From Nitrospirales bacterium (GTDB lineage Bacteria > Nitrospirota > Nitrospiria > Nitrospirales > UBA8639), in NCBI GenBank assembly GCA_021604005.1, contig BQIV01000019.1:1-64000 (forward strand): a stretch of DNA of 64,000 bases. The letters are read 5' to 3'. Below, one piece after another: positions 1-13,182 of the stretch (position 1 is its first letter; the number at the start of each line of letters is the position of its first letter). A program made the position numbers and the translations under genes. The notes beneath the pieces are model-generated. The model made no database searches, was not told the origin of the DNA, and worked only from the letters and a program-made list of their open reading frames with translations.

Positions 1-167
1 ATCTTAATGCCGTACTCACCGGGGAGGATTTTACGCAGGATATAGGCCTTGTGCCCTTTGATATTGTCTATGTGCCACGTTCACCCATTGCGGATGTGAA
101 CCTCTGGGTCGATCAATATATTCGTAAAAACATTCCCATAAATTTTGGAGCATTTTTCCCGCTGTAA
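1..167 (+). CDS. C-terminal end of a Wza-like polysaccharide export protein (partial)
   Basis: The window opens inside a reading frame that ends with TAA at 165-167. The 54 visible codons read like the last segment of an outer-membrane polysaccharide export (Wza/GumB) protein: a stretch DIVYVPRSPIADVN followed by an amphipathic end with LWVDQYIRKNIPIN and a hydrophobic terminus AFFPL. In this family that segment follows the SLBB domains and leads to the helix that spans the outer membrane. It lies 57 bases before the next export-type gene on the same strand, so it very likely belongs to the same EPS operon. The N-terminus, signal peptide and lipobox lie outside the window. Confidence 0.75.
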   Translation, partial: LNAVLTGEDFTQDIGLVPFDIVYVPRSPIADVNLWVDQYIRKNIPINFGAFFPL

Positions 168-224: not shown

Positions 225-1385
225 ATGCAGATTTTCAGGAAGAAGAGAATAGTGAAAACTCTATATTCCTTTCGCTCAACCCGTCAGCATTTTCAATTGT
301 GCGTACTCTTCTTTTCACTTTCAATTTTAACACTTGGCGTTGGGACCGCACAGTCTTTTGAGTCCGTATCCACAGAACAGAAGACTCAACGTACCGATCT
401 ATTAACCGGACAACCGCCAACAAACGCCTTACCTAATCCTTCTTTTGTCGAACGTCAATTGCATGCCTATAAACATGAACTCGCTCAAGCTGAAGCAAAG
501 GTTCAAGCATTTAAAAAATACCATGCCTTCACATCTCTTGCAGATCAACAGCAACTCCTTCTTGAACAAAGAAAAGAATTAGACACCCTCTTAAAGGAAA
601 CAGCCAATAATATTAGCGGACTTGATACGAAACTCATATGGCTCAAAAAACAGATCACGAAAATTCCGGCAAAAGTGCCTCTATCAAGCGTGACGAATCA
701 ACAACAAATTATTCAAGAGGCCCAAAAAAATCTTCTCGATCTCGAGATTAAAGAACAAGAATATTTAACGAAATATCAAGCCAATAGCCGCGCTATTCAG
801 AGTGTTCAGAAAGAAATTCAGCTTGTTGAGAATTTTTTAAAGAAACAGCAGTCCGCAGAACTTGAAAATATGATAACAACGGGGAAGAATCCTGTATATC
901 AAGAGCTTGAAATTGAAATTCTTCGCACAGAGGCACAACTTGTTTCGGAACAAGCACGTCGGAACGTTACACATAAGCAAATTCTTGAAATAGACAAAGA
1001 ACTTCAACGGTTGAATCATCTCGAAAAAGAATTTCGGGAACTTCTTCGTACGGTTGAGGCGAGTGAACGTGCCTACGAGGACTATCTTGCGATGGTCGGA
1101 ACCACGCCGTTACATGATTACCGGATCCAAGTTGGCGATCTACTCGACGTGAAGTTTTTCTTCAATCCTGACCTCAATCAAGAAGCCACGGTGCGACCTG
1201 ATGGAAAGATCTCGTTGCAACTCATCGGTGAAGTTATGGCTTCAGGACAAACGGTTGAGGAATTAAAAGCTCTCTTAAAGCAACGTTACGAGAATGAATT
1301 AAAAAATCCGTCGATTACAGTGATTCTACGTTCATTTACGACGAATATCGATACGCGTTCCCGAGCGACTAAGCATTCTCGATAA
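225..1385 (+). CDS. Chimeric EPS protein: Wzc-type coiled coil fused to a Wza-type export domain
   Basis: This is a 386-residue protein with a hydrophobic N-terminal segment (about residues 24-42, signal peptide or anchor). A long coiled coil follows (about 75-290), then a polysaccharide-export (PES) domain (about 297-372) with the typical DYRIQVGDLLDV and VRPDGKISLQLIGEV motifs. The coiled coil matches the periplasmic coiled coil of the neighbouring GumC protein step by step: LLLEQR, KNLLDLEIKEQEYLTKY against SNLLKLQLEEQNLSTRY, and NPVYQELEIEI against NPVHQELLIEI. The protein stops just after the PES domain and has no SLBB repeats. It looks like a domain-shuffled adaptor between the outer-membrane exporter and the inner-membrane co-polymerase; that role is inferred. 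ATG at 225, weak ribosome site. Confidence 0.8.
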   Translation: MQIFRKKRIVKTLYSFRSTRQHFQLCVLFFSLSILTLGVGTAQSFESVSTEQKTQRTDLLTGQPPTNALPNPSFVERQLHAYKHELAQAEAKVQAFKKYHAFTSLADQQQLLLEQRKELDTLLKETANNISGLDTKLIWLKKQITKIPAKVPLSSVTNQQQIIQEAQKNLLDLEIKEQEYLTKYQANSRAIQSVQKEIQLVENFLKKQQSAELENMITTGKNPVYQELEIEILRTEAQLVSEQARRNVTHKQILEIDKELQRLNHLEKEFRELLRTVEASERAYEDYLAMVGTTPLHDYRIQVGDLLDVKFFFNPDLNQEATVRPDGKISLQLIGEVMASGQTVEELKALLKQRYENELKNPSITVILRSFTTNIDTRSRATKHSR

Positions 1386-1495: not shown

Positions 1496-2986
1496 GTGAT
1501 ACCACAACAAGAACAACAGGGCATTTCGCCACAACATGATGGGCCTCACATTAGCTTGCGAGATGTTTTGACTATTCTATTTAAGCACAGAGGAAAGATT
1601 TTCGGGGTGTTGATTGGGACGGTGGCATTGGTGACGATTGGTTCTTTTTTAATTCCCCCAACATACGAAGCGACATCAAGTTTGATGGTGAAGATGGGGC
1701 GTGAACACATCTATCGTCCCGAAGTCGGGAGCGTCAATCCGTCCGTGTCGTTTGATCAAGAACGCGTCATTGAATCTGAACTTCAAATTATTTCTAGCCG
1801 AGATTTATTGGAGCGGGTCATCAAGACCTTGAGTGTCAAAATGATGTACCCTGAGATTGCTGATTCTCCGCCTTCAGATATCTCGATGCTTGAAGCTAGT
1901 TTTCTGGAAATGCAGGAGAATTTTCGGGCGACGGGCGTCAAAGATTCTAATGTCATCAACTTGAATTTTCAGCACCACAATCCAGAGATTTCCGCGAAGT
2001 CTATTAACCTCTTGATAGACTATCTCTTGGAAAAACATTTGGAGATTTTCAGTAATCCACAATTTGCATTTCTTGAACAGCAAGTCCAGGATTATCATAA
2101 TAAATTGAAAAGCGCCAAGAGCGCCCTGCAAGAATTTAAACGTCAACATGGGCTATCTTCACTCGAAGAGGAGCAGCATCTTCTTCTCGAACAGCGTAGG
2201 AATTTGGATGTGTCCCGTCGAGAAGTGCAGAATGAAAGAGAAGGTCTAAAGAGCAAGCTTGATTCACTCCTCAAGCAAATTGCAGAAGTGCCGGAGTTTG
2301 TATCTCATACAAGCCTCTCCGAACGGCAAAAAGTGATCGATGAAGCCAAATCCAATCTCTTGAAGTTACAACTTGAAGAACAGAATCTGTCCACACGCTA
2401 TAAAGACACCAGTCGTTTCATTGTCAATATTCGAAGTGAAATCCAGATGATTCAGAAATTTATCCAAGAACAAGAATCTGTCCTTAGTGATAAAGTTACG
2501 ACAACCCAAAATCCTGTCCATCAAGAACTTCTCATTGAAATTCATAAGTCAAAATCTGAATTTCGCTCTCTCGACTCTCGTGTGAAAGCTATTACTGGAC
2601 AGTTGCAGGAGTTGGATAGAAATTTATCAACACTTGATACATTGGCCAAAGAGCTTGAAGCCCTGCAGTTGGAGGTCGAGTCGGCACAAAAAAATTACAC
2701 CATTTATTTGAGTAAAGTTGAAGATGCACGAGTTGCTGAAGAAATGGATCATCTCAAGTTAGCGAATATTAGCGTCATTCAACCTGCGGTTGTCCCAGCG
2801 GAGCCGATATCCCCCAAAATAGCTTTCAATATTCTGATTGCGGTAATCCTCGGTAGCATTGCGGGTATTAGCTTAGCTTTTCTTTCTGAGTATTTTCAGG
2901 GAGGATACACACGCTCGGAACATGCCGCGCGTGCACTCGGACTTCCAACGCTTACAAGTGTTCGTTATCACGAAGATCTTACGTAG
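1496..2986 (+). CDS. GumC/Wzz-family polysaccharide co-polymerase (chain-length determinant)
   Basis: This is a 496-residue inner-membrane protein that should set EPS chain length and bridge the periplasm to the outer-membrane exporter. A first membrane segment (about 34-54) is followed by the Wzz motif (PPTYEATSSLMV). A large periplasmic coiled coil (about 195-410), a proline-rich PAEPISPK motif and a second membrane segment (about 445-465) follow. It ends about 30 residues after the second membrane segment with no kinase domain; the ATPase partner is separate at 4569. The start is GTG at 1496, because the nearby ATG at 1476 is in another frame and soon stops. The next gene starts 5 bases after its stop, indicating one operon. 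Confidence 0.88.
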   Translation: MIPQQEQQGISPQHDGPHISLRDVLTILFKHRGKIFGVLIGTVALVTIGSFLIPPTYEATSSLMVKMGREHIYRPEVGSVNPSVSFDQERVIESELQIISSRDLLERVIKTLSVKMMYPEIADSPPSDISMLEASFLEMQENFRATGVKDSNVINLNFQHHNPEISAKSINLLIDYLLEKHLEIFSNPQFAFLEQQVQDYHNKLKSAKSALQEFKRQHGLSSLEEEQHLLLEQRRNLDVSRREVQNEREGLKSKLDSLLKQIAEVPEFVSHTSLSERQKVIDEAKSNLLKLQLEEQNLSTRYKDTSRFIVNIRSEIQMIQKFIQEQESVLSDKVTTTQNPVHQELLIEIHKSKSEFRSLDSRVKAITGQLQELDRNLSTLDTLAKELEALQLEVESAQKNYTIYLSKVEDARVAEEMDHLKLANISVIQPAVVPAEPISPKIAFNILIAVILGSIAGISLAFLSEYFQGGYTRSEHAARALGLPTLTSVRYHEDLT

Positions 2987-2991
2987 GGCTT

Positions 2992-4506
2992 ATGTACCTA
3001 ACCTTTTACGGTCTCACCAAAAAGCCGTTTCATACGACGCCCGATCCGCGCTTTCTGTTTTCAAGCGCGACCCATCGGGAAGCCTTATCTTCCCTAATCT
3101 ACGGGGTTGAAGAACGGCAAGGGTTCATTACGATTATTGGTGAAGTCGGTGTTGGGAAAACCACGATTCTTCGCACGTTGCTTGAACGGCTCGATGCCTC
3201 GCAAGACCGTGCGGTCTATATTTATAATCCAAATCTAACGTTTTCTGATTTATTGAAATGCCTGTTGAGTGAGCTTGGGCATCACGCAATCGATCAGAGC
3301 AGTAGTGCCATGGTTCAGCAACTCCAAGACGTCTTAATTCAAGAATATCAAAAAGGCGGAACCATTGTGTTGCTGATCGATGAAGCTCAGAATATGCCGC
3401 TTGCCACGCTTGAAAATTTGCGTATGCTGTCGAACCTTGAGACGACAACCGATAAACTTCTCCAAATTGTTCTAATTGGTCAACCTGAATTGGAAGATTT
3501 GCTCAATCAAGATGCGTTGCGTCAATTAAAGCAACGCATCACCATTCGCGCGACGATTCGACCTCTAACCAAAACAGAAAGCTTTGACTATATCCAGTAC
3601 CGGCTGGCCAAAGCCGGAGCCAAATCTTCTACTATTTTTTCCAAGCCTGCGCTCACATTGATTATTCATGAGGCAAAAGGCATTCCACGACGGTTGAATA
3701 TACTGTGCGACAATACGCTCCTCACGGGTTATGCCTATCAAGTGAAGCCGATTCCTGGAAAAGTCGCCAAAGAAGTCATTGCGGACCTTAAGGGTACGAC
3801 AAGCCAAAGACGTAAAACATGGATAGCGGCAGCTATAGTCGCCGGGGTTTTTATTTTCTCGATTCCTTGGATTCGCGCCAATACAGATTTGTTTTGGTTT
3901 GAGTCACATAGTGATTCCCTTTCACCCGTACACATCACCCAGAAGGTAATCCCTTCGTCTCAACGAGGCGAATCATCGCTGCCACCTTCCGTGACGCAAC
4001 CATTAGACATAACTGAACCAATGCCGACACCCGTTATGCCGAAGAATGTTTCAGTACAGAACTCCTCTATGAAACCTTCTCGCATACGGCCTATACCAAA
4101 GCAGATCGATCAGAGCACATTGCCGGTTACCCAGATTGAAAATCCGAAAGCTCAAGGACAATCGCTCGACGCACCAACGACGAAACTCCCGCAGGCAGTT
4201 CAGCCTCCCCTTCGTCAACGTGAAAGACAGTCTATTCATGCAAAATCATCGAAACAATTACGTACTCAAGAGCCTGTACATCCGTTACAAGATACGGCAC
4301 GCGTCGGAGAGTCGCCTTTAAAGGTGTATCATGTTAAGCGAGGGGATACACTTGATAAACTCATACGTTCAACGTACGGGAGGTCAAGTCCTCAGCATAT
4401 CCGTCGTGTCTTAGAGCAGAATCCGCATATACGAAGTGCTAAATGGCTGTTCCCTGGACAAACAATCACATTTCCACGGATTCGTCCAGAGTTGTCTGCC
4501 GACTGA
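2992..4506 (+). CDS. ExeA/GspA-like AAA ATPase with transmembrane segment and C-terminal LysM domain
   Basis: This 504-residue protein begins with the ExeA-like signature (FYGLTKKPF, TPDPRFLF). It has a complete Walker A (GEVGVGKTT, about 50-58) and Walker B with LLIDEAQ (about 125-131), so the ATPase domain should be active in the cytoplasm. One membrane segment lies near 276-292. A long Pro/Ser/Gln-rich linker leads to a periplasmic LysM domain (about 443-497, YHVKRGDTLDKLI and FPGQTITFP), which should bind peptidoglycan. ATPases of this type are standard in exosortase-associated EPS loci. The LysM end suggests that it helps pass the exporter through the cell wall; that is inferred by analogy with GspA. 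Confidence 0.85.
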   Translation: MYLTFYGLTKKPFHTTPDPRFLFSSATHREALSSLIYGVEERQGFITIIGEVGVGKTTILRTLLERLDASQDRAVYIYNPNLTFSDLLKCLLSELGHHAIDQSSSAMVQQLQDVLIQEYQKGGTIVLLIDEAQNMPLATLENLRMLSNLETTTDKLLQIVLIGQPELEDLLNQDALRQLKQRITIRATIRPLTKTESFDYIQYRLAKAGAKSSTIFSKPALTLIIHEAKGIPRRLNILCDNTLLTGYAYQVKPIPGKVAKEVIADLKGTTSQRRKTWIAAAIVAGVFIFSIPWIRANTDLFWFESHSDSLSPVHITQKVIPSSQRGESSLPPSVTQPLDITEPMPTPVMPKNVSVQNSSMKPSRIRPIPKQIDQSTLPVTQIENPKAQGQSLDAPTTKLPQAVQPPLRQRERQSIHAKSSKQLRTQEPVHPLQDTARVGESPLKVYHVKRGDTLDKLIRSTYGRSSPQHIRRVLEQNPHIRSAKWLFPGQTITFPRIRPELSAD

Positions 4507-4568: not shown

Positions 4569-5342
4569 ATGAGTAAAGTTTACGAAGCCTTACAGCAAGC
4601 TCAAACAGATCGACAGCATGGGAAAGGCCGTCTTCTTCAAGAGCGACCAGAAAAAGAAACGCCACAGATCCTTCCAATACGAGTTCTCGATCAACCGAAG
4701 CAAGCTGAAGAGTTCCCAATACAGCTTGAACGGGAAATGCTTCAACTTCACCAAAATCTTTCAAGTTTACTGGATAATAGTAAGAAAAATATCATTCAGT
4801 TTCTTGGCTCTCAAGACAATGATGGGACATCAACTATCGTTCGTGAATATGCCAAGGTCTTGGCGATGATATACGGTAAATCCGTTCTTCTTATCGATGC
4901 ACATCAGGCGCAAGCACAATTCAAGTACTTTGGCGTACACCCTGTCATTTCACTCGAGCAAGCTATTATGGATGAAGAAGACATTCGTGAGGCTGTGTAT
5001 CAAGTTGGCGAGTCTCAATTATGTATTGCATCACTCTCATCACAGGTACGATCGATAGCCAATCGGGAAGTCTCAGAAAAAAAAGAAAAAGTTTTAACGA
5101 GTGCACAATATCGATTTGACTACATCCTCATTGATTCGCCAACTCTTCATTCTTCAATCGATAGCCTCGAGTTGTGCAAGCGGGTGCATGGTGTGGTCGT
5201 AGTGATTCAAGCCGAAAAATCCCGTTCCGCAGTTATTGAGAATGTGAAAGAACGGATTGAGAAAAATGGAGGAACGGTGTTAGGCATTGTCTTTAATAAG
5301 GAGTTTCATTACATACCGAAATGGCTCTACAAACACCTCTGA
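4569..5342 (+). CDS. CpsD/CapB-family tyrosine-kinase-like ATPase with degenerate P-loop
   Basis: The 257-residue protein starts MSKVYEALQQAQ, the usual beginning of the separate BY-kinase-like partner of GumC in exosortase EPS loci. It keeps the Walker A-prime strand (VLLIDAHQAQ) and Walker B (YILIDSPTL). The P-loop position reads GSQDNDGTST (about 79-88) instead of the expected GxxxxGKST/GKT form, so the phosphate-binding lysine is missing. The C-terminal tail has only two tyrosines and no tyrosine cluster. It may be a non-phosphorylating regulator of the co-polymerase. I recall related GTST variants in this family, but catalytic loss here is an inference. It starts at ATG 4569, 62 bases after the preceding gene. 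Confidence 0.82.
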   Translation: MSKVYEALQQAQTDRQHGKGRLLQERPEKETPQILPIRVLDQPKQAEEFPIQLEREMLQLHQNLSSLLDNSKKNIIQFLGSQDNDGTSTIVREYAKVLAMIYGKSVLLIDAHQAQAQFKYFGVHPVISLEQAIMDEEDIREAVYQVGESQLCIASLSSQVRSIANREVSEKKEKVLTSAQYRFDYILIDSPTLHSSIDSLELCKRVHGVVVVIQAEKSRSAVIENVKERIEKNGGTVLGIVFNKEFHYIPKWLYKHL

Positions 5343-5489
5343 CATGAAGAAACAAAACATTTTCCAGGTAACAGACCAAGGCGTCCACTCGTAATCATCA
5401 TTTCCCATCTACTGCGAATTTTATCAATAACCTATTTCTTCCGTACTCTATCTACTGGTGAATCTCACTCTCCTGAGGAATTGTTAATC

Positions 5490-7037
5490 ATGTTCTTTCT
5501 ACCTCTTTGTCAGATGGTTCGCTCTGTGGTTTTAGCCCTGGTTTTGTGTGGCAGTAGTCTGAGCGCAGAGAGTTATAGTTTTCTTCTAGATAGAGCTGTT
5601 GTTTTTTCAGATGAAACAGCAAATTCCACTACATCGTATGCGATACATACCAACACTGAAGCGCTCGACTCTTCGAATGCCATCGCGATAGAACCGGGGA
5701 CTACCATTCAATTCCTTGTCGAGCGTTATCCACCCGGCACAAAATTTGTTCTAAAAAAAGGCATACATCGTCTTCAACGTATTATTCCCAAAAACGGCAA
5801 TTCGTTTGTTGGTGAATCAGGTGCGATCTTATCCGGTGCGCGGGAATTGACCGAGTTTATTAAAAAAGGAAAATATTGGGTCATAACCGGTCAAACCCAA
5901 CAAGGACAAGTGCATGGCAAGTGTCAAAAATTATCAAACGGACACGAGTCTACTGGTTGTAGATATCCGGAAGATCTGTTTCGTGATGATACGGTATTAG
6001 TCCAAGTTACAAGCTTATCTGACATTGGGAAGGATAGTTGGTATTTTGATTATAAGAATGATTCAATATATGTAGCCGATGACCCTGTTGGGCATAAAAT
6101 TGAAACGAGTATTACACGTCATGCATTTGAAGGTGCGGCCAAAGATGTGACGATTCGTGGTTTAATCATTGAAAAGTATGCCAATCCGGCACAACATGGA
6201 GCGATCCATGTCAAACACGGACAAAATTGGATTGTCCAAGACTCCGAGGTCAGACTTAACCATGGGATAGGTATTCGATCAGGAGAACGCCTTCATGTTC
6301 TACGCTGCCACGTCCATCATAATGGACAACTCGGTATTGGTGGATTTGGTGATAGTATTTTGATTCAACACAATGAAATCTCACATAATAATACACAGCA
6401 ATTCAGACGAGAATGGGAAGCTGGTGGAACAAAGTTTGTCAAAACACAGAATCTTATTGTCCGTGACAATTTTGTACATCACAACCAAGGGCCAGGACTT
6501 TGGACTGACATCGATAATATCAACACTTTATACGAACGAAACCGAGTGGAAGACAATGAGAGAGCAGGGATTTTCCACGAAATCAGTTATGCTGCAATCA
6601 TTAGAGATAACGTTGTCACAAGAAACGGACTAGGTTTCCCTGTATGGCTATGGGGCTCCGGGATCCTTGTTGCCGCTTCTTCCGATACCGAAGTCTATCG
6701 AAATCTTGTTGAGAACAATGCTGACGGAATTGGGGCGGTTCAACAAAAACGCGGGATAGGAAAGTATGGACCCCATCTTGTCAAGAATTTATCGGTACAT
6801 GATAATGTCGTGAGCATGACGAATGGCAATACTGGACTCGTTCAAGATACGGACGACATGTCCTGCTTTACGCAACGCAACAATCGTTTTGAACACAATA
6901 CCTACCATCTTCTTGAAAACAGGAAAAAATATTTTCTTTGGATGAATCGTTTTCAAACCTTTCGAGAATGGCAAAGTTATGGGCATGATACAAAGGGGAA
7001 ATTAGGACACTCCTCTCATGCCTCCAGCACTCAATGA
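5490..7037 (+). CDS. Secreted right-handed parallel beta-helix protein (single-domain copy)
   Basis: This 515-residue protein begins at ATG 5490. An AGGA ribosome site at 5476-5479 fits this start better than a TTG at 5481. A signal peptide (about residues 1-28, hydrophobic SVVLALVLCGSS) is followed by a conserved front domain (GTKFVLKKGIHRLQRIIPK, NSFVGESGAILSGA). A right-handed beta-helix follows, made of short repeats rich in N/H/G turns (HHNGQLGIGG, GPGLWTDIDNINTLYE, GVLWGSGI-type turns). It is homologous along its whole length to both halves of the next gene. The helix fold is used by polysaccharide lyases, epimerases and hydrolases, and the EPS-locus position suggests action on the polymer. 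I cannot identify catalytic residues. Confidence 0.75.
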   Translation: MFFLPLCQMVRSVVLALVLCGSSLSAESYSFLLDRAVVFSDETANSTTSYAIHTNTEALDSSNAIAIEPGTTIQFLVERYPPGTKFVLKKGIHRLQRIIPKNGNSFVGESGAILSGARELTEFIKKGKYWVITGQTQQGQVHGKCQKLSNGHESTGCRYPEDLFRDDTVLVQVTSLSDIGKDSWYFDYKNDSIYVADDPVGHKIETSITRHAFEGAAKDVTIRGLIIEKYANPAQHGAIHVKHGQNWIVQDSEVRLNHGIGIRSGERLHVLRCHVHHNGQLGIGGFGDSILIQHNEISHNNTQQFRREWEAGGTKFVKTQNLIVRDNFVHHNQGPGLWTDIDNINTLYERNRVEDNERAGIFHEISYAAIIRDNVVTRNGLGFPVWLWGSGILVAASSDTEVYRNLVENNADGIGAVQQKRGIGKYGPHLVKNLSVHDNVVSMTNGNTGLVQDTDDMSCFTQRNNRFEHNTYHLLENRKKYFLWMNRFQTFREWQSYGHDTKGKLGHSSHASSTQ

Positions 7038-7645
7038 ATTTCACAGTTCCCATGGCTTTATCCGTCTAATACCATACATGTTCAGTTTGTAATCACACAT
7101 TCCTTGTTTCTCTTTCATATCGACCAATTAATAAAGCGGATTGTTGGTAGTTCCACCGGTGTTCAGACCGCTGAATATTTTCAGGAGCTTACTCCTTCAA
7201 AGAAATGATTTTTCTGTGCTCAAGTCCTTTGCAACTCCATACACCATACTCAAGAATCATTATTATCCAACATCTTATGTTTCAACAATAGAGACATCGA
7301 TCTCGTGACCCGAGGAATTTTCTGCATCTTTCATGGGTAATATTTTCCTCTCATACGCCTATCGCCTTCACTCATTGATCATCTCGATTCAAACAACTTG
7401 CGTTCCGCAACTTCATCATTCAACTCAAGTTTCAACACGTCTTGCTTGCCACATTATCAATTTTCCTTGTTGTTCCTGATACATAAACCGTCAGTCTGAA
7501 TAACGTGACTTCGTTCACATCTTCGCGTTCACTCCGTGCCCAAGAAATACTTCGTGCATGGCATTAGTTGTGCACACAGCGATTGTTTCAACAACTCCAT
7601 CACACCGCCAAAAGAACGCGAGAGCAAAGGAGATTGAGAATCGTT
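7038..7645. other. Gene-less stretch between the two beta-helix genes
   Basis: These 608 bases hold no convincing reading frame on either strand. Two small hairpins sit close together: TTCAG/CTGAA around a 4-base loop (7162-7175) and AGGAG/CTCCT around a 4-base loop (7183-7196). The rest is AT-rich and unstructured by eye. The length suggests that the second beta-helix gene has its own promoter or a long leader, but I see no clear promoter. Confidence 0.4.
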
Positions 7646-10489
7646 ATGAAGAAATGCGCGCAGCACCTCAATGGTTATATGATCATCGTCATACTTTTGG
7701 GGGGTATGGTGACCTCTTTACCCGAATCCCACGCGTCAATCGTGATTCACCCAGGAAACAATATTCAAACTTTCGTGAATGCCCACCCTGAAGGAACGAC
7801 GTTTCTCTTGCAACCCGGTGTCTATAGAGGACAACAGATTGTTCCGAAATCCGGAAACAGCTTTATCGGTGAATCCGGAGTCATCCTTTCAGGAGCGGCT
7901 TTATTGAGAGACTTTTCCCCTAAAGGCAACCGTTGGTCGACGCCGTATCGATGGTCGTTCGGCCAACCTCATGGTCTTTGCAAAATCCAAGCAAATGGTC
8001 AGCGTCAAACGGCATGTCAATTTCCCGAAAATCTATTCATCGACGGGAAAATATTAACCCAAGTGACCCGCCTATCAGAGGTAAGACTAGGAACATGGTT
8101 CCTTGATCGTACTCATAAAAAAATATACATCGCCAACAATCCTCGAAATCAAAAAGTTGAAATCAGTGTGATTCCGCATGCATTTAGTGGAAAGGCAGCG
8201 AATGTTACGATCAAAAACCTGATCATTGAAAAATATGCAAATCCGGCACAGCAAGGTGCGATACACGGTAAAGCCAGCGCAAACGGGCATGTAAGCGATG
8301 GCTGGCATATCCAAGGCGTTGAAGTACGATTTAATCACGGAACTGGAATTCGGGTTGGACATCGCATGAAATTGATTGCTAACCATATTCACCATAATGG
8401 TCAATTAGGTATTGGTGGAAGTGGAGACGATATCGTGGCAGAAAACAATGTGATCGCGCTTAATAATACACAGGGATTTAGTACAGGTTGGGAGGCAGGC
8501 GGTGTAAAATTCGTTAAAACAAAAAATGTCGTGATTCGAGGGAATGTTATTCAACAGAATGTTGGGCCGGGTCTCTGGATAGATGACGACAATATCAACA
8601 CGCTCTACGAGGGCAATCGAATCCTTGACAATACTCATGCTGGAATTATCCATATGACCAGTTATGCAGCCATGATTCGCAACAATTGGGTCAAAGGCAA
8701 CGGATATGGATTTTCAAAATGGCTGTGGGGATCAGGAATTCTTGTCCATTCCTCACCAAATGTAGAAATATACGGCAACACGCTGATTCACAACGCAGAT
8801 GGCATTTCCGCCATTGAACAGAAAGCCGGAACGGGCAAATACGGCCCGTATGAGGTCCGCAACTTGTTCGTACATCACAATCACATTGCGATGAACACTG
8901 GCCAATCAGGAGTCGTTCAGGACACGGGCAATACCTCATTGTTTGGAAGCCGCAATAATCGGTTTCAAAATAACACGTACGTCATTCCTGATGACGCCAA
9001 GTTTTTTCGATGGTCGGACCGCCGGATGACTCCGTCCGAATGGCGTACGTTTGGACACGATGTGAATGGCCGGTTCTTTATTCGTCAATCGCGCACCATA
9101 GACGAAGAGTTGGCTGTCCCCATCAGGCCAGGACAAAACATTCAGGCCAAAGTTGATCAGCATCCCGAGGGCACGATTTTTTTGATTAAGTCGGGGCTAC
9201 ACCGTTTTCAGCAGATTGTCCCGAAAAACGGAAATACGTTTTTGGGAGAAAACGGCGCGATTCTCTCCGGAGCCAAACGGTTAGCCACATTTACACGCGA
9301 AGGACCGTACTGGGTCGCCCATAATCAAACCCAACAAGGTGATGTTGAATCCTTGCAAACAGCCTGCATGGTACTGGAGTCTGGGGCACAAGCACATGGA
9401 TGCCGATATCCAGAGGACTTGTTTCTTGATAACACACCGTTGCTTCAGGTAACTCGCCTCGATCGCGTGAAACCAGGGAAATGGTTTTTTGATTACAAGA
9501 ATGACAAGATTTACCTGATTGACAATCCTGTAGGACATAAAGTCGAGACAAGTGTCACCCCTCATGCGTTTTTCGGCAACGCTAACAATGTCACGATCAA
9601 AAATTTAATCATTGAAAAATATGCCAACCCTGCACGACAAGGAGCCATTCATGCCCGAAAAGCTTTTCATGATCCTCAAGGACAAAACTGGAGGATCGAA
9701 AACTCGGAAATACGGCTCAATCATGGATGGGGAATCAGGGCCGGAGACGCCATGGAAGTTTTCAATTGTTATGTTCATCATAATGCGCAACTCGGGATCG
9801 GTGGAACTGGGAAGAATATCAAACTTCAAGGTAATGAAATTGCCTTTAACAATACACAGGATTTTAGTTGGGACTTTGAAGCAGGCGGGATCAAATTCTT
9901 GAAGACACGTAACTTACAGGTAATTGGCAACCTCGCCCATCATAATGTCGGATGCGGGCTCTGGACCGACATTGATAATAGAAGTACGCTTTATGCGGGT
10001 AATCACGTATTCGATAACGCACGATGCGGCATTTATCATGAAGTAGGATTTTCTGCGTTGATCCAGCACAATTTGACAGAGCGAAACGGCTTCGGCTATC
10101 CACTTTGGCTTTGGGGGTCCGGAATCGTTGTGTATTCTTCACCTAATGTTGAAGTCCGTTATAATCTTGTCAGCAATAACATGGGAGGCATTGCCGGTAT
10201 CCAGCAAAATCGATTGAATTCTCAGGGAAGCGCGTTACTACGGAACCTTCACGTGCACCACAATTTCATTTCTCTCAGCAAAGGAACTGGACTTGTGTAT
10301 GACAGACCTCATAATAATGCCGTGTTCACTTCTCAAAATAATCGATTCGAAAACAATAATTACATACTCGGTGACAGCAAAAAACCGTTTCGTTGGTTAC
10401 GGGCACTTCATGCAGAAGACGAATGGCAAGCATTCGGCAATGATGTGAAGGGAACCTTTTCTCGAATAGAAGCAGGCCATTCACCGTAA
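7646..10489 (+). CDS. Large secreted beta-helix protein made of two tandem copies of the same domain
   Basis: This 947-residue protein starts at ATG 7646, where a signal peptide begins (MKKCAQHL, then MIIVILLGGMVTSLP). An AAGGAG lies about 14 bases upstream, and frames running further upstream lack a plausible signal. Two homologous halves (about residues 33-470 and 475-945) each contain the front motif (PEGTTFLLQPGVYRGQQIVP; PEGTIFLIKSGLHRFQQIVP) and the whole beta-helix (YANPAQQGAIH/YANPARQGAIH, HHNGQLGIGG/HHNAQLGIGG, WLWGSGI). The upstream single-domain protein resembles the second half most closely (QTQQG, CRYPEDLF, DYKND, PVGHK). The product is probably exported and acts on or binds the EPS. 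Its stop is only 7 bases from the stop of the convergent gene. Confidence 0.78.
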   Translation: MKKCAQHLNGYMIIVILLGGMVTSLPESHASIVIHPGNNIQTFVNAHPEGTTFLLQPGVYRGQQIVPKSGNSFIGESGVILSGAALLRDFSPKGNRWSTPYRWSFGQPHGLCKIQANGQRQTACQFPENLFIDGKILTQVTRLSEVRLGTWFLDRTHKKIYIANNPRNQKVEISVIPHAFSGKAANVTIKNLIIEKYANPAQQGAIHGKASANGHVSDGWHIQGVEVRFNHGTGIRVGHRMKLIANHIHHNGQLGIGGSGDDIVAENNVIALNNTQGFSTGWEAGGVKFVKTKNVVIRGNVIQQNVGPGLWIDDDNINTLYEGNRILDNTHAGIIHMTSYAAMIRNNWVKGNGYGFSKWLWGSGILVHSSPNVEIYGNTLIHNADGISAIEQKAGTGKYGPYEVRNLFVHHNHIAMNTGQSGVVQDTGNTSLFGSRNNRFQNNTYVIPDDAKFFRWSDRRMTPSEWRTFGHDVNGRFFIRQSRTIDEELAVPIRPGQNIQAKVDQHPEGTIFLIKSGLHRFQQIVPKNGNTFLGENGAILSGAKRLATFTREGPYWVAHNQTQQGDVESLQTACMVLESGAQAHGCRYPEDLFLDNTPLLQVTRLDRVKPGKWFFDYKNDKIYLIDNPVGHKVETSVTPHAFFGNANNVTIKNLIIEKYANPARQGAIHARKAFHDPQGQNWRIENSEIRLNHGWGIRAGDAMEVFNCYVHHNAQLGIGGTGKNIKLQGNEIAFNNTQDFSWDFEAGGIKFLKTRNLQVIGNLAHHNVGCGLWTDIDNRSTLYAGNHVFDNARCGIYHEVGFSALIQHNLTERNGFGYPLWLWGSGIVVYSSPNVEVRYNLVSNNMGGIAGIQQNRLNSQGSALLRNLHVHHNFISLSKGTGLVYDRPHNNAVFTSQNNRFENNNYILGDSKKPFRWLRALHAEDEWQAFGNDVKGTFSRIEAGHSP

Positions 10490-11682: not shown

Positions 11683-13182
11683 TTATCCCTTTTCTTGCGC
11701 TAGCATTGGGGGGGGGGTGATCATACTTTGTTTTATAAGCAACTGCTCATAACCACGCTTTTGTAGCAAGGTAACTGCAAACCCAAACCCCATGATCGAC
11801 CAAAACCAAATCCCCCCTTGTGGGCCTTCTAGATACACATCAAAACTGGAATTGATCATGCATGCGCTCCAATATGCAAGAACCCATATACTGAGTTTTT
11901 TGCATAAATCCTGATGATATTTTGATGATTGCACATAGACATAGACCATTTGTACGGCAAAACCTATTTGAAGCAGTACCCACAAAATGAATCCAGGAAC
12001 TCCTGCTCGCGCTAAAATGGTGAGATGTCCATTGTGAGGACTTCTTAGTGGAGCCCCCTCTTCAATAACTTGAAAACCGTCGGCATCAGCCAAATTGACC
12101 CCAAACCCTTTTCCAAGCCAGAAATACTTTCCTCCAAAAGTGTACTGAATAATAGCCTCCCACCAATTCAACCGCCATTCCTTTGTCCCTTTCAGTTCGC
12201 TTACATTGACATCCTCACTACTAAGAATACTCACAACATTCTCCAGCGCTTGACGAGTGGAAACCTTGCGGACATCTCCAATATCGACTTCAATATTCAT
12301 CACGAACCCTAAAAACCCCAGAAACAGACATACGAGGACAGGTTTGCCCCATCGCCCCAAAGGATACATCAGAAAGACAAAACTTAAGGAAATCACAACC
12401 ATGAGAAATGAGGATCGAGATTGTGTCACGAGAAGGAAAAACCCGAACAACCACAGGATCCAATAGCCCCACTCGCGGACATTCACATTCAACACATCAT
12501 TGGGTTGTCTGATTGTCTGATGAATGTTAAGAATAAGAAATGTTGCAATGCCTGTTAAATGCACAGCCGCATCACCCGGCTTAAATCCTTGAAACAGCAG
12601 GACATCTTCCCCGAAAACTTTTGAGCCAATCGTGATAACGGGCACCCAGATGAGGAACGGCACGATACATTTGCTATAGAGTGAAGGAACATAAGACGTC
12701 CAAGCAGTTCGATATAACCCTGCAACAATCAAGACACTAAAAATGAAGTACCCCCAGATCACGCCATCTCGCAACGCGGTGATTCCATATGTTTCAAGAT
12801 ATGGGATCGTTCGAATGCACCCCCATAAGGCGTAGATAACAAGAAGCAGAACAAGCGGTAGTCGAAAGATCGGTGCCACAATCTTTCGTCCCGCTATAAA
12901 GGCCAGCATTCCCAGCCCCAGCACCATCTCTCCCACAAACAAAGGTGGGATGCCAATATAAGCAAATGTGCGCCCGAAAAATGCATAGCCCACCAACAGT
13001 ACACCGAGACTTCCGAGAAACCACTCTGTTAAATAGTTTTTGGCCCATAGCGCGACTCCTGTTAGCAAAAGACCAGCGGTCAGAATCACCGCCCCGTACG
13101 CCGCGTCGAACAAAATGACAAGGCTCAGGGCTAACGCGATGAACAGCGTCATACCCCATTCCCATGCACGAACGTTCATCAT
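11683..13182 (-). CDS. O-antigen polymerase/ligase-like (Wzy-type) membrane protein with a C10 tract
   Basis: The 499-residue protein is almost entirely hydrophobic, with roughly ten to twelve membrane segments and a long periplasmic-type loop (about 290-390). This is the arrangement of Wzy polymerases and O-antigen ligases. The loop contains an RSPHNGHL motif, as is common in this superfamily. It should polymerise repeat units in the periplasm. Close to its 3' end lies a run of ten C residues on the coding strand (plus-strand G run 11708-11717), encoding Thr-Pro-Pro-Pro eight residues before the stop. The start has two adjacent ATGs (13182 and 13179). Confidence 0.82.
   Translation of the reverse strand: MMNVRAWEWGMTLFIALALSLVILFDAAYGAVILTAGLLLTGVALWAKNYLTEWFLGSLGVLLVGYAFFGRTFAYIGIPPLFVGEMVLGLGMLAFIAGRKIVAPIFRLPLVLLLVIYALWGCIRTIPYLETYGITALRDGVIWGYFIFSVLIVAGLYRTAWTSYVPSLYSKCIVPFLIWVPVITIGSKVFGEDVLLFQGFKPGDAAVHLTGIATFLILNIHQTIRQPNDVLNVNVREWGYWILWLFGFFLLVTQSRSSFLMVVISLSFVFLMYPLGRWGKPVLVCLFLGFLGFVMNIEVDIGDVRKVSTRQALENVVSILSSEDVNVSELKGTKEWRLNWWEAIIQYTFGGKYFWLGKGFGVNLADADGFQVIEEGAPLRSPHNGHLTILARAGVPGFILWVLLQIGFAVQMVYVYVQSSKYHQDLCKKLSIWVLAYWSACMINSSFDVYLEGPQGGIWFWSIMGFGFAVTLLQKRGYEQLLIKQSMITPPPMLAQEKG
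11708..11717 (-). repeat. Homopolymer tract C10 inside the wzy-like gene
   Basis: On the plus strand this is ten consecutive G residues. On the coding strand it spans the codons ACC CCC CCC CCA. A gain or loss of one base would change only the end of the polymerase. With one base lost, it ends three residues later (Gln-Cys-stop). With one base gained, it extends and stops at a TGA that overlaps the GTG start of the following glycosyltransferase gene. Tracts of this length are known slippage sites. Confidence 0.6.

Follow-up and report, generated by a model that had tools for sequence, protein, structure and literature searches.

The window analysed here is a stretch of 64,000 nucleotides from a Nitrospirales bacterium, the first base of which is also the end of its contig. 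Near this end we found an ORF of unusual composition, termed the fusion below, between the genes for a polysaccharide exporter and a GumC-type co-polymerase. The features to which we refer are as follows:

3..167, + strand: 3' end of an outer-membrane exporter (OPX) gene, its C-terminus matching L058:2563-3258
225..1385, + strand: fusion protein of 386 aa (leader, PCP GumC/Wzc helical arm and Poly_export/Wza D1 domain), for which 18 homologues were aligned
225..358, + strand: predicted signal sequence of the fusion, with a hydrophobic helix at about residues 22-42 and without a conserved lipobox cysteine
432..1100, + strand: helical arm of the fusion (residues 70-292), a homologue of the GumC arm by sequence match and predicted helix pattern
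765..794, + strand: predicted arm tip of the fusion (residues 181-190, K183-Y184...), at the break between helices 156-183 and 189-215
1113..1328, + strand: Poly_export domain (Wza D1) of the fusion (residues 297-368), by PF02563 and fold match
1146..1178, + strand: loop DVKFFFNPDLN (residues 308-318) of the fusion D1, counterpart of the Wza D99-E102 loop and aligned with WDHPEL of Wza
1496..2986, + strand: GumC-type polysaccharide co-polymerase (Wzz, arm and GNVR; PF02706, PF13807, TIGR03007) without a kinase domain
2992..4506, + strand: XrtA-type ATPase with a C-terminal LysM-like region (ExeA-like peptidoglycan-binding ATPase; TIGR03015, AAA_22, weak LysM)
4569..5342, + strand: BY-kinase homologue with a degenerate Walker A motif (TIGR01007/TIGR03018)

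The exporter gene is partial because the window starts at the contig edge. Over 54 aa, its remaining fragment (3-164) shares 93 % identity with the C-terminal end of a full-length relative (L058:2563-3258) that consists of Poly_export and SLBB domains, in keeping with the description of this gene as a normal exporter in an earlier note on this DNA. The GumC protein gave a PDB profile match to PslE (9v75, E-value 1e-36), and the ATPase that follows it matched TIGR03015 with an E-value of 2.8e-82. For the BY-kinase homologues at GumC loci, a search for the Walker A motif G-x4-GK[ST] was negative in all 20 proteins (window 4569-5342, which reads GSQDNDGTST, L038:8970-9725, L040:5929-6702 and 17 others); as the motif is missing throughout, these proteins look like tyrosine pseudokinases, of a kind comparable with the pseudokinase EcpK of Myxococcus xanthus (PMC12004946). 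After the operon the window encodes two right-handed beta-helix proteins (5481-7037, 518 aa, and 7568-10489, 973 aa), the longer of which looks like a tandem double copy of the shorter; both are possibly polysaccharide-modifying enzymes.

Residues 70-292 of the fusion aligned with residues 188-408 of the adjacent GumC protein (1496-2986) at 38 % identity and 65 % positives (E-value 6e-39), and the co-polymerase model TIGR03007 matched the fusion in part (E-value 4e-16), as expected for a co-polymerase helical arm. This alignment has a local score of 404, whereas none of 300 shuffles that preserved the heptads scored above 99; the likeness therefore exceeds generic coiled-coil similarity, and chance resemblance between the two arms is ruled out. 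The homology to the GumC coiled coil proposed in the earlier note is thus significant, although at 38 % identity its wording, 'closely similar', was generous. The same note had placed a Wza-type export domain without SLBB repeats at the C-terminus, and here we indeed found PF02563 at residues 297-368 (E-value 1.1e-21), as in OPX proteins, with 52-61 % identity to the Poly_export domains of exporters in most comparisons, whilst domain searches returned no SLBB match in either the window fusion or a second copy on contig C63 of the same genome. A frameshift masking SLBB repeats, which had been raised as possible counter-evidence, was looked for and is ruled out: all frames of the 110 bases between the fusion stop and GumC were read and contain no SLBB, and the C-terminal end lies at the same place, shortly after D1, in 18 of 18 aligned homologues. 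Also absent from the fusion are the Wzz (PF02706) and GNVR (PF13807) domains present in the neighbouring GumC, together with the two membrane helices that flank the arm. Lacking SLBB on the one hand and the Wzz, GNVR and membrane segments on the other, the fusion belongs to neither the OPX proteins nor the co-polymerases. Its leader is variable and hydrophobic, and is followed in the homologues by A-x-A-like sites (e.g. SYA↓D and FSFA↓E), whilst no conserved cysteine or lipobox was found in this region across the 18-homologue alignment; from these properties we infer that 225..358 acts as a leader for secretion and that the fusion is a soluble exported protein.

An AlphaFold model of the fusion (mean pLDDT 72.8, pTM 0.39), which does not give the orientation of the domains, contains helices at residues 74-100, 105-146, 156-183, 189-215 and 223-291, followed by the D1 fold, with short strands at 150-152 and 219-221; the same pattern of arm helices was seen in the model of GumC. 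As read from this secondary structure, the arm would leave its base and return to it, ending in a hairpin that turns at residues 184-188. In a fold search, D1 matched the class-3 OPX protein WzaB (9n9a; Z 13.1, 1.2 A over 73 residues) and Wza (2j58; Z 12.0). Helical matches from this search (SMC, chemoreceptors and similar) were set aside as generic. No Wzc chain was among the matches listed in the fold search, and PslE was met by sequence profile alone, as a weak PDB match to the arm (E-value 0.001).

These two halves correspond to the two sides of a contact that has been solved by cryo-EM for Wza-Wzc of Escherichia coli K-12, in which the Wzc forearm or arm tip docks on Wza D1, with Wza D99, E102 and Y155 touching Wzc K332, Y334, T335 and H338; deletion of Wza D1 abolishes co-localization, and the combined Wzc K332/Y334/T335/H338 mutant makes no polymer (PMC12881504). 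The contact residues map to KLYTKVHP in Wzc (K332-P339) and to WDHPEL in Wza. At the site of the Wza loop the fusions read KFFFNP(D/E)LN, and no other stretch of the family is as well conserved as this docking loop (pairwise identity 0.91 versus 0.72 for the whole domain). At the arm turn there is a motif, K-(Y/F)-x4-(P/R), close to the K/R-Y/F tip of GumC relatives; fusions of the C63/g9 type have a Wzc-like Y-to-P spacing, and those of the window type carry R in place of P. With E. coli Wzc the fusion tip aligns over a short stretch that contains gaps, and an extra hairpin is found at this position in GumC-type arms. From these motifs, residues 181-190 are predicted to be the counterpart of the Wza-binding tip of Wzc, K-L-Y-T-x-x-H-P. 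As the loop and tip motifs are both kept, a single chain carries the underside of an exporter together with the top of a co-polymerase.

The fusion is not confined to the window. On contig C63 the same genome has another full set, made up of an exporter, a fusion 43 % identical to that of the window, and GumC. Just upstream of this second locus lies a gene (L038:659-3595) for a 978-aa protein that joins a sugar transferase and a CapD-like polysaccharide synthase to a response-regulator receiver domain. In total, fusions were found in 16 of 97 related genomes, all belonging to genera g1, g8 and g9 of the window's own Nitrospirales family, and their frames are intact in all 16 (385-414 aa). The order exporter-fusion-GumC is seen at loci with complete flanks, and in sufficiently long flanks these genes are followed by the XrtA-type ATPase with its LysM-like end and by the BY-kinase homologue. 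In two close relatives the fusion is preceded by two tandem exporter genes of ∼87 % identity (L040:11093-11788 and 12361-13059; L039:1305-2003 and 2563-3258). The same genomes also hold another type of GumC locus, made up of GumC, a longer LysM ATPase (∼690-760 aa) and a pseudokinase homologue; no adjoining exporter or fusion was present at those inspected (L090, L091, L092, L093, L094, L095 and L055).

Beyond this family, the fusion was found neither among 395 evenly drawn genomes of the phylum nor, when 84,980 species were scanned by motif with one genome for each, outside Nitrospirales/Nitrospirota MAGs; the sampled genomes of the other Nitrospirales family are likewise without it, and plasmid records gave Poly_export matches with no full-length fusion among them. 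The family that carries the fusion is nitrite-oxidising. Since nxrB-like genes, a proxy for nitrite oxidation, were present in most family genomes with or without the fusion, they offer no usable correlation with it.

The arms of 18 fusions and 20 GumC proteins were placed in one tree, in which all fusions fall on one side of a branch with support of 100/96. Mean arm identity was 59 % among fusions, 49 % among GumC proteins and 35 % between the two groups, and the identity of a fusion to the GumC of its own locus (31-40 %) hardly differs from that overall mean. In the Poly_export tree, built on 78 columns, a single clade of fusions had a p-AU of 0.52, i.e. a single origin is not rejected. On this sequence evidence the arm half was gained once, before the two types of locus now found together in this genome diverged. 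The earlier note had seen in the fusion a chimera lying next to its own parents. That a GumC-type arm and a Wza-type domain are fused, between genes of just these kinds, is confirmed; by the phylogeny the neighbouring genes are not its direct parents, given the single arm clade, the unremarkable own-locus identity and an origin before the locus types split, and they are parents solely in that genes of such kinds are its ancestors. Because the fusion arms form a single clade and the genome has another copy on a different contig, a recent duplication within the window locus is ruled out.

Closely related pairs of fusions gave dN/dS values of 0.14-0.19, which indicate purifying selection (dS is saturated in pairs with the window gene). 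Together with the second copy, the recurrence in 16 genomes and the single arm clade, these values identify the fusion as an old, selected third component of the locus. It is removable, as G002, a 99 % complete genome of the window's genus, has an exporter and GumC without a fusion at its syntenic locus (L056; flanking deformylase-, ABC transporter- and lpxD-like genes recognized by eye). The GumC of G002 nests in the arm tree with that of G001, a fusion carrier, and most simply the fusion was cleanly lost.

The fusion is thus real, conserved and unusual. With GumC, PslE and Wzc (PCP-2a) it shares the homologous helical arm at residues 70-292, whilst lacking their flanking transmembrane helices, Wzz/jellyroll domain, GNVR segment and kinase. 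With OPX proteins (Wza, class-3 WzaB) it shares the Poly_export/D1 fold; it differs from them in the arm added in front and in the absence of the Wza_C helix, the lipobox and SLBB, the last of which is present in all three published OPX classes (PMC9603273). The closest protein described is ExoF of Sinorhizobium meliloti, in which Poly_export and a long helical hairpin also share one chain, so that an OPX domain with a helical hairpin is a known design. The protein meant here lies next to exoY on pSymB, and we take it to be ExoF from this neighbour. Its order is Poly_export-SLBB-hairpin, with SLBB kept and a hairpin that matches HlyD-type adaptors (TIGR01843), whereas in the fusion the arm comes first, is of the PCP type and is joined to a D1 without SLBB. 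The earlier statement that no protein of this form has been described therefore stands for the exact architecture, as no PCP-type arm ahead of a lone D1 was found in the literature searched, and does not extend to ExoF, an OPX protein with a different hairpin at the other end. In the E. coli Wza-Wzc complexes (9r64 and others) the two proteins are in direct contact with no storey between them, whereas the fusion combines both halves of that contact.

The fusion is composed of precisely those domains that meet in the solved contact. This suggests a place between exporter and co-polymerase, and the protein is plausibly a third scaffold linking them, as the earlier note had also supposed; that it bridges them physically is what we infer. 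The reading that we prefer, to which we give a little less than an even chance, is that the fusion serves a polysaccharide export machine of the Wzy type as a dedicated periplasmic adaptor, or spacer. In a slightly more tentative extension, it would form a stackable storey that offers a plug like that of the co-polymerase at its top and a socket like that of the exporter below, lengthening the trans-envelope channel to suit the Nitrospirales periplasm. After secretion, the fusion would form a ring through its D1 domains, and this ring would rest on oligomeric GumC at the tips of its arms, as Wza D1 does on Wzc tips. The arms of the fusion would reach towards the outer membrane and clasp the short lipoprotein exporter by its D1 ring. 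The tube would thereby gain one storey, consisting of a D1 ring and an arm of roughly 100 A (as estimated from helix lengths), and the polymer channel would stay continuous across the extended periplasm typical of these bacteria. Because its bottom resembles that of the exporter and its top that of GumC, such a storey could be inserted or lost without redesign of its neighbours; removal of a spacer is predicted to leave a compatible GumC-exporter pair, which fits the retention of both genes in G002.

An extended periplasmic space is common to Nitrospirales (PMC13049253, PMC3600790). For class-3 exporters of M. xanthus, ∼100 A remain unaccounted for, and stacked OPX rings have been proposed as one solution (PMC9603273); an extra ring with its arm would fit such a gap. 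Against the adaptor reading is the other Nitrospirales family, which is also reported to have an extended periplasm and lacks the fusion in its sampled genomes; as such, a wide periplasm does not require the fusion. Furthermore, the periplasmic parts of Wzc alone do not bind Wza, because assembly is driven by the cytoplasmic kinase (PMC12881504), and a soluble arm protein would consequently need another route to oligomerization. On balance, a bridging or spacing function appears likely enough to test.

Other arrangements of the same parts are conceivable. Fusion and GumC arms are homologous along their whole length, have the same predicted helices and could co-assemble, so that the two might run side by side in a joint coiled-coil cage; D1 would be close to the inner membrane, and the fusion would line or gate the cage instead of making it longer. 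This we regard as unlikely: the docking loop, although the most conserved stretch, would then sit far from any known arm tip, and no binder of D1 is known close to the inner membrane. A slightly smaller probability attaches to a role as regulator or competitor, in which a soluble mimic would cap GumC tips with its D1, or exporter rings with its arms, and so limit the number or length of exported polymers. Possession of one half of each partner's interface, the lack of any membrane anchor besides the leader and the tolerance of its loss in G002 would all agree with this, yet a competitor has no need of both halves in one chain, and the fusion is always one gene, in the operon, between both partners. 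We consider it improbable to the same degree that the fusion is an alternative exporter subunit, a second OPX-like member of the exporter ring whose arm would serve as a stabilizing stalk. OPX proteins with a hairpin do exist (ExoF) and the Poly_export domain is more than half identical to those of exporters in most comparisons, but SLBB, lipobox and outer-membrane segment are all missing and a full exporter is encoded next door. Finally, a non-functional relic of duplication in the locus, to which its loss in G002 and absence from other GumC loci might point, is scarcely credible, as it is contradicted by the selection data, with frames intact in 16 genomes, low dN/dS and a near-invariant docking loop.

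How polysaccharide passes through a periplasm wider than a co-polymerase and a short exporter can span is an open problem, stated as such for M. xanthus (PMC9603273). By uniting both contact surfaces in one chain, the fusion gives this question a concrete and testable answer for one lineage and, if the adaptor reading is true, would be a natural example of the modular lengthening of an envelope-spanning machine.
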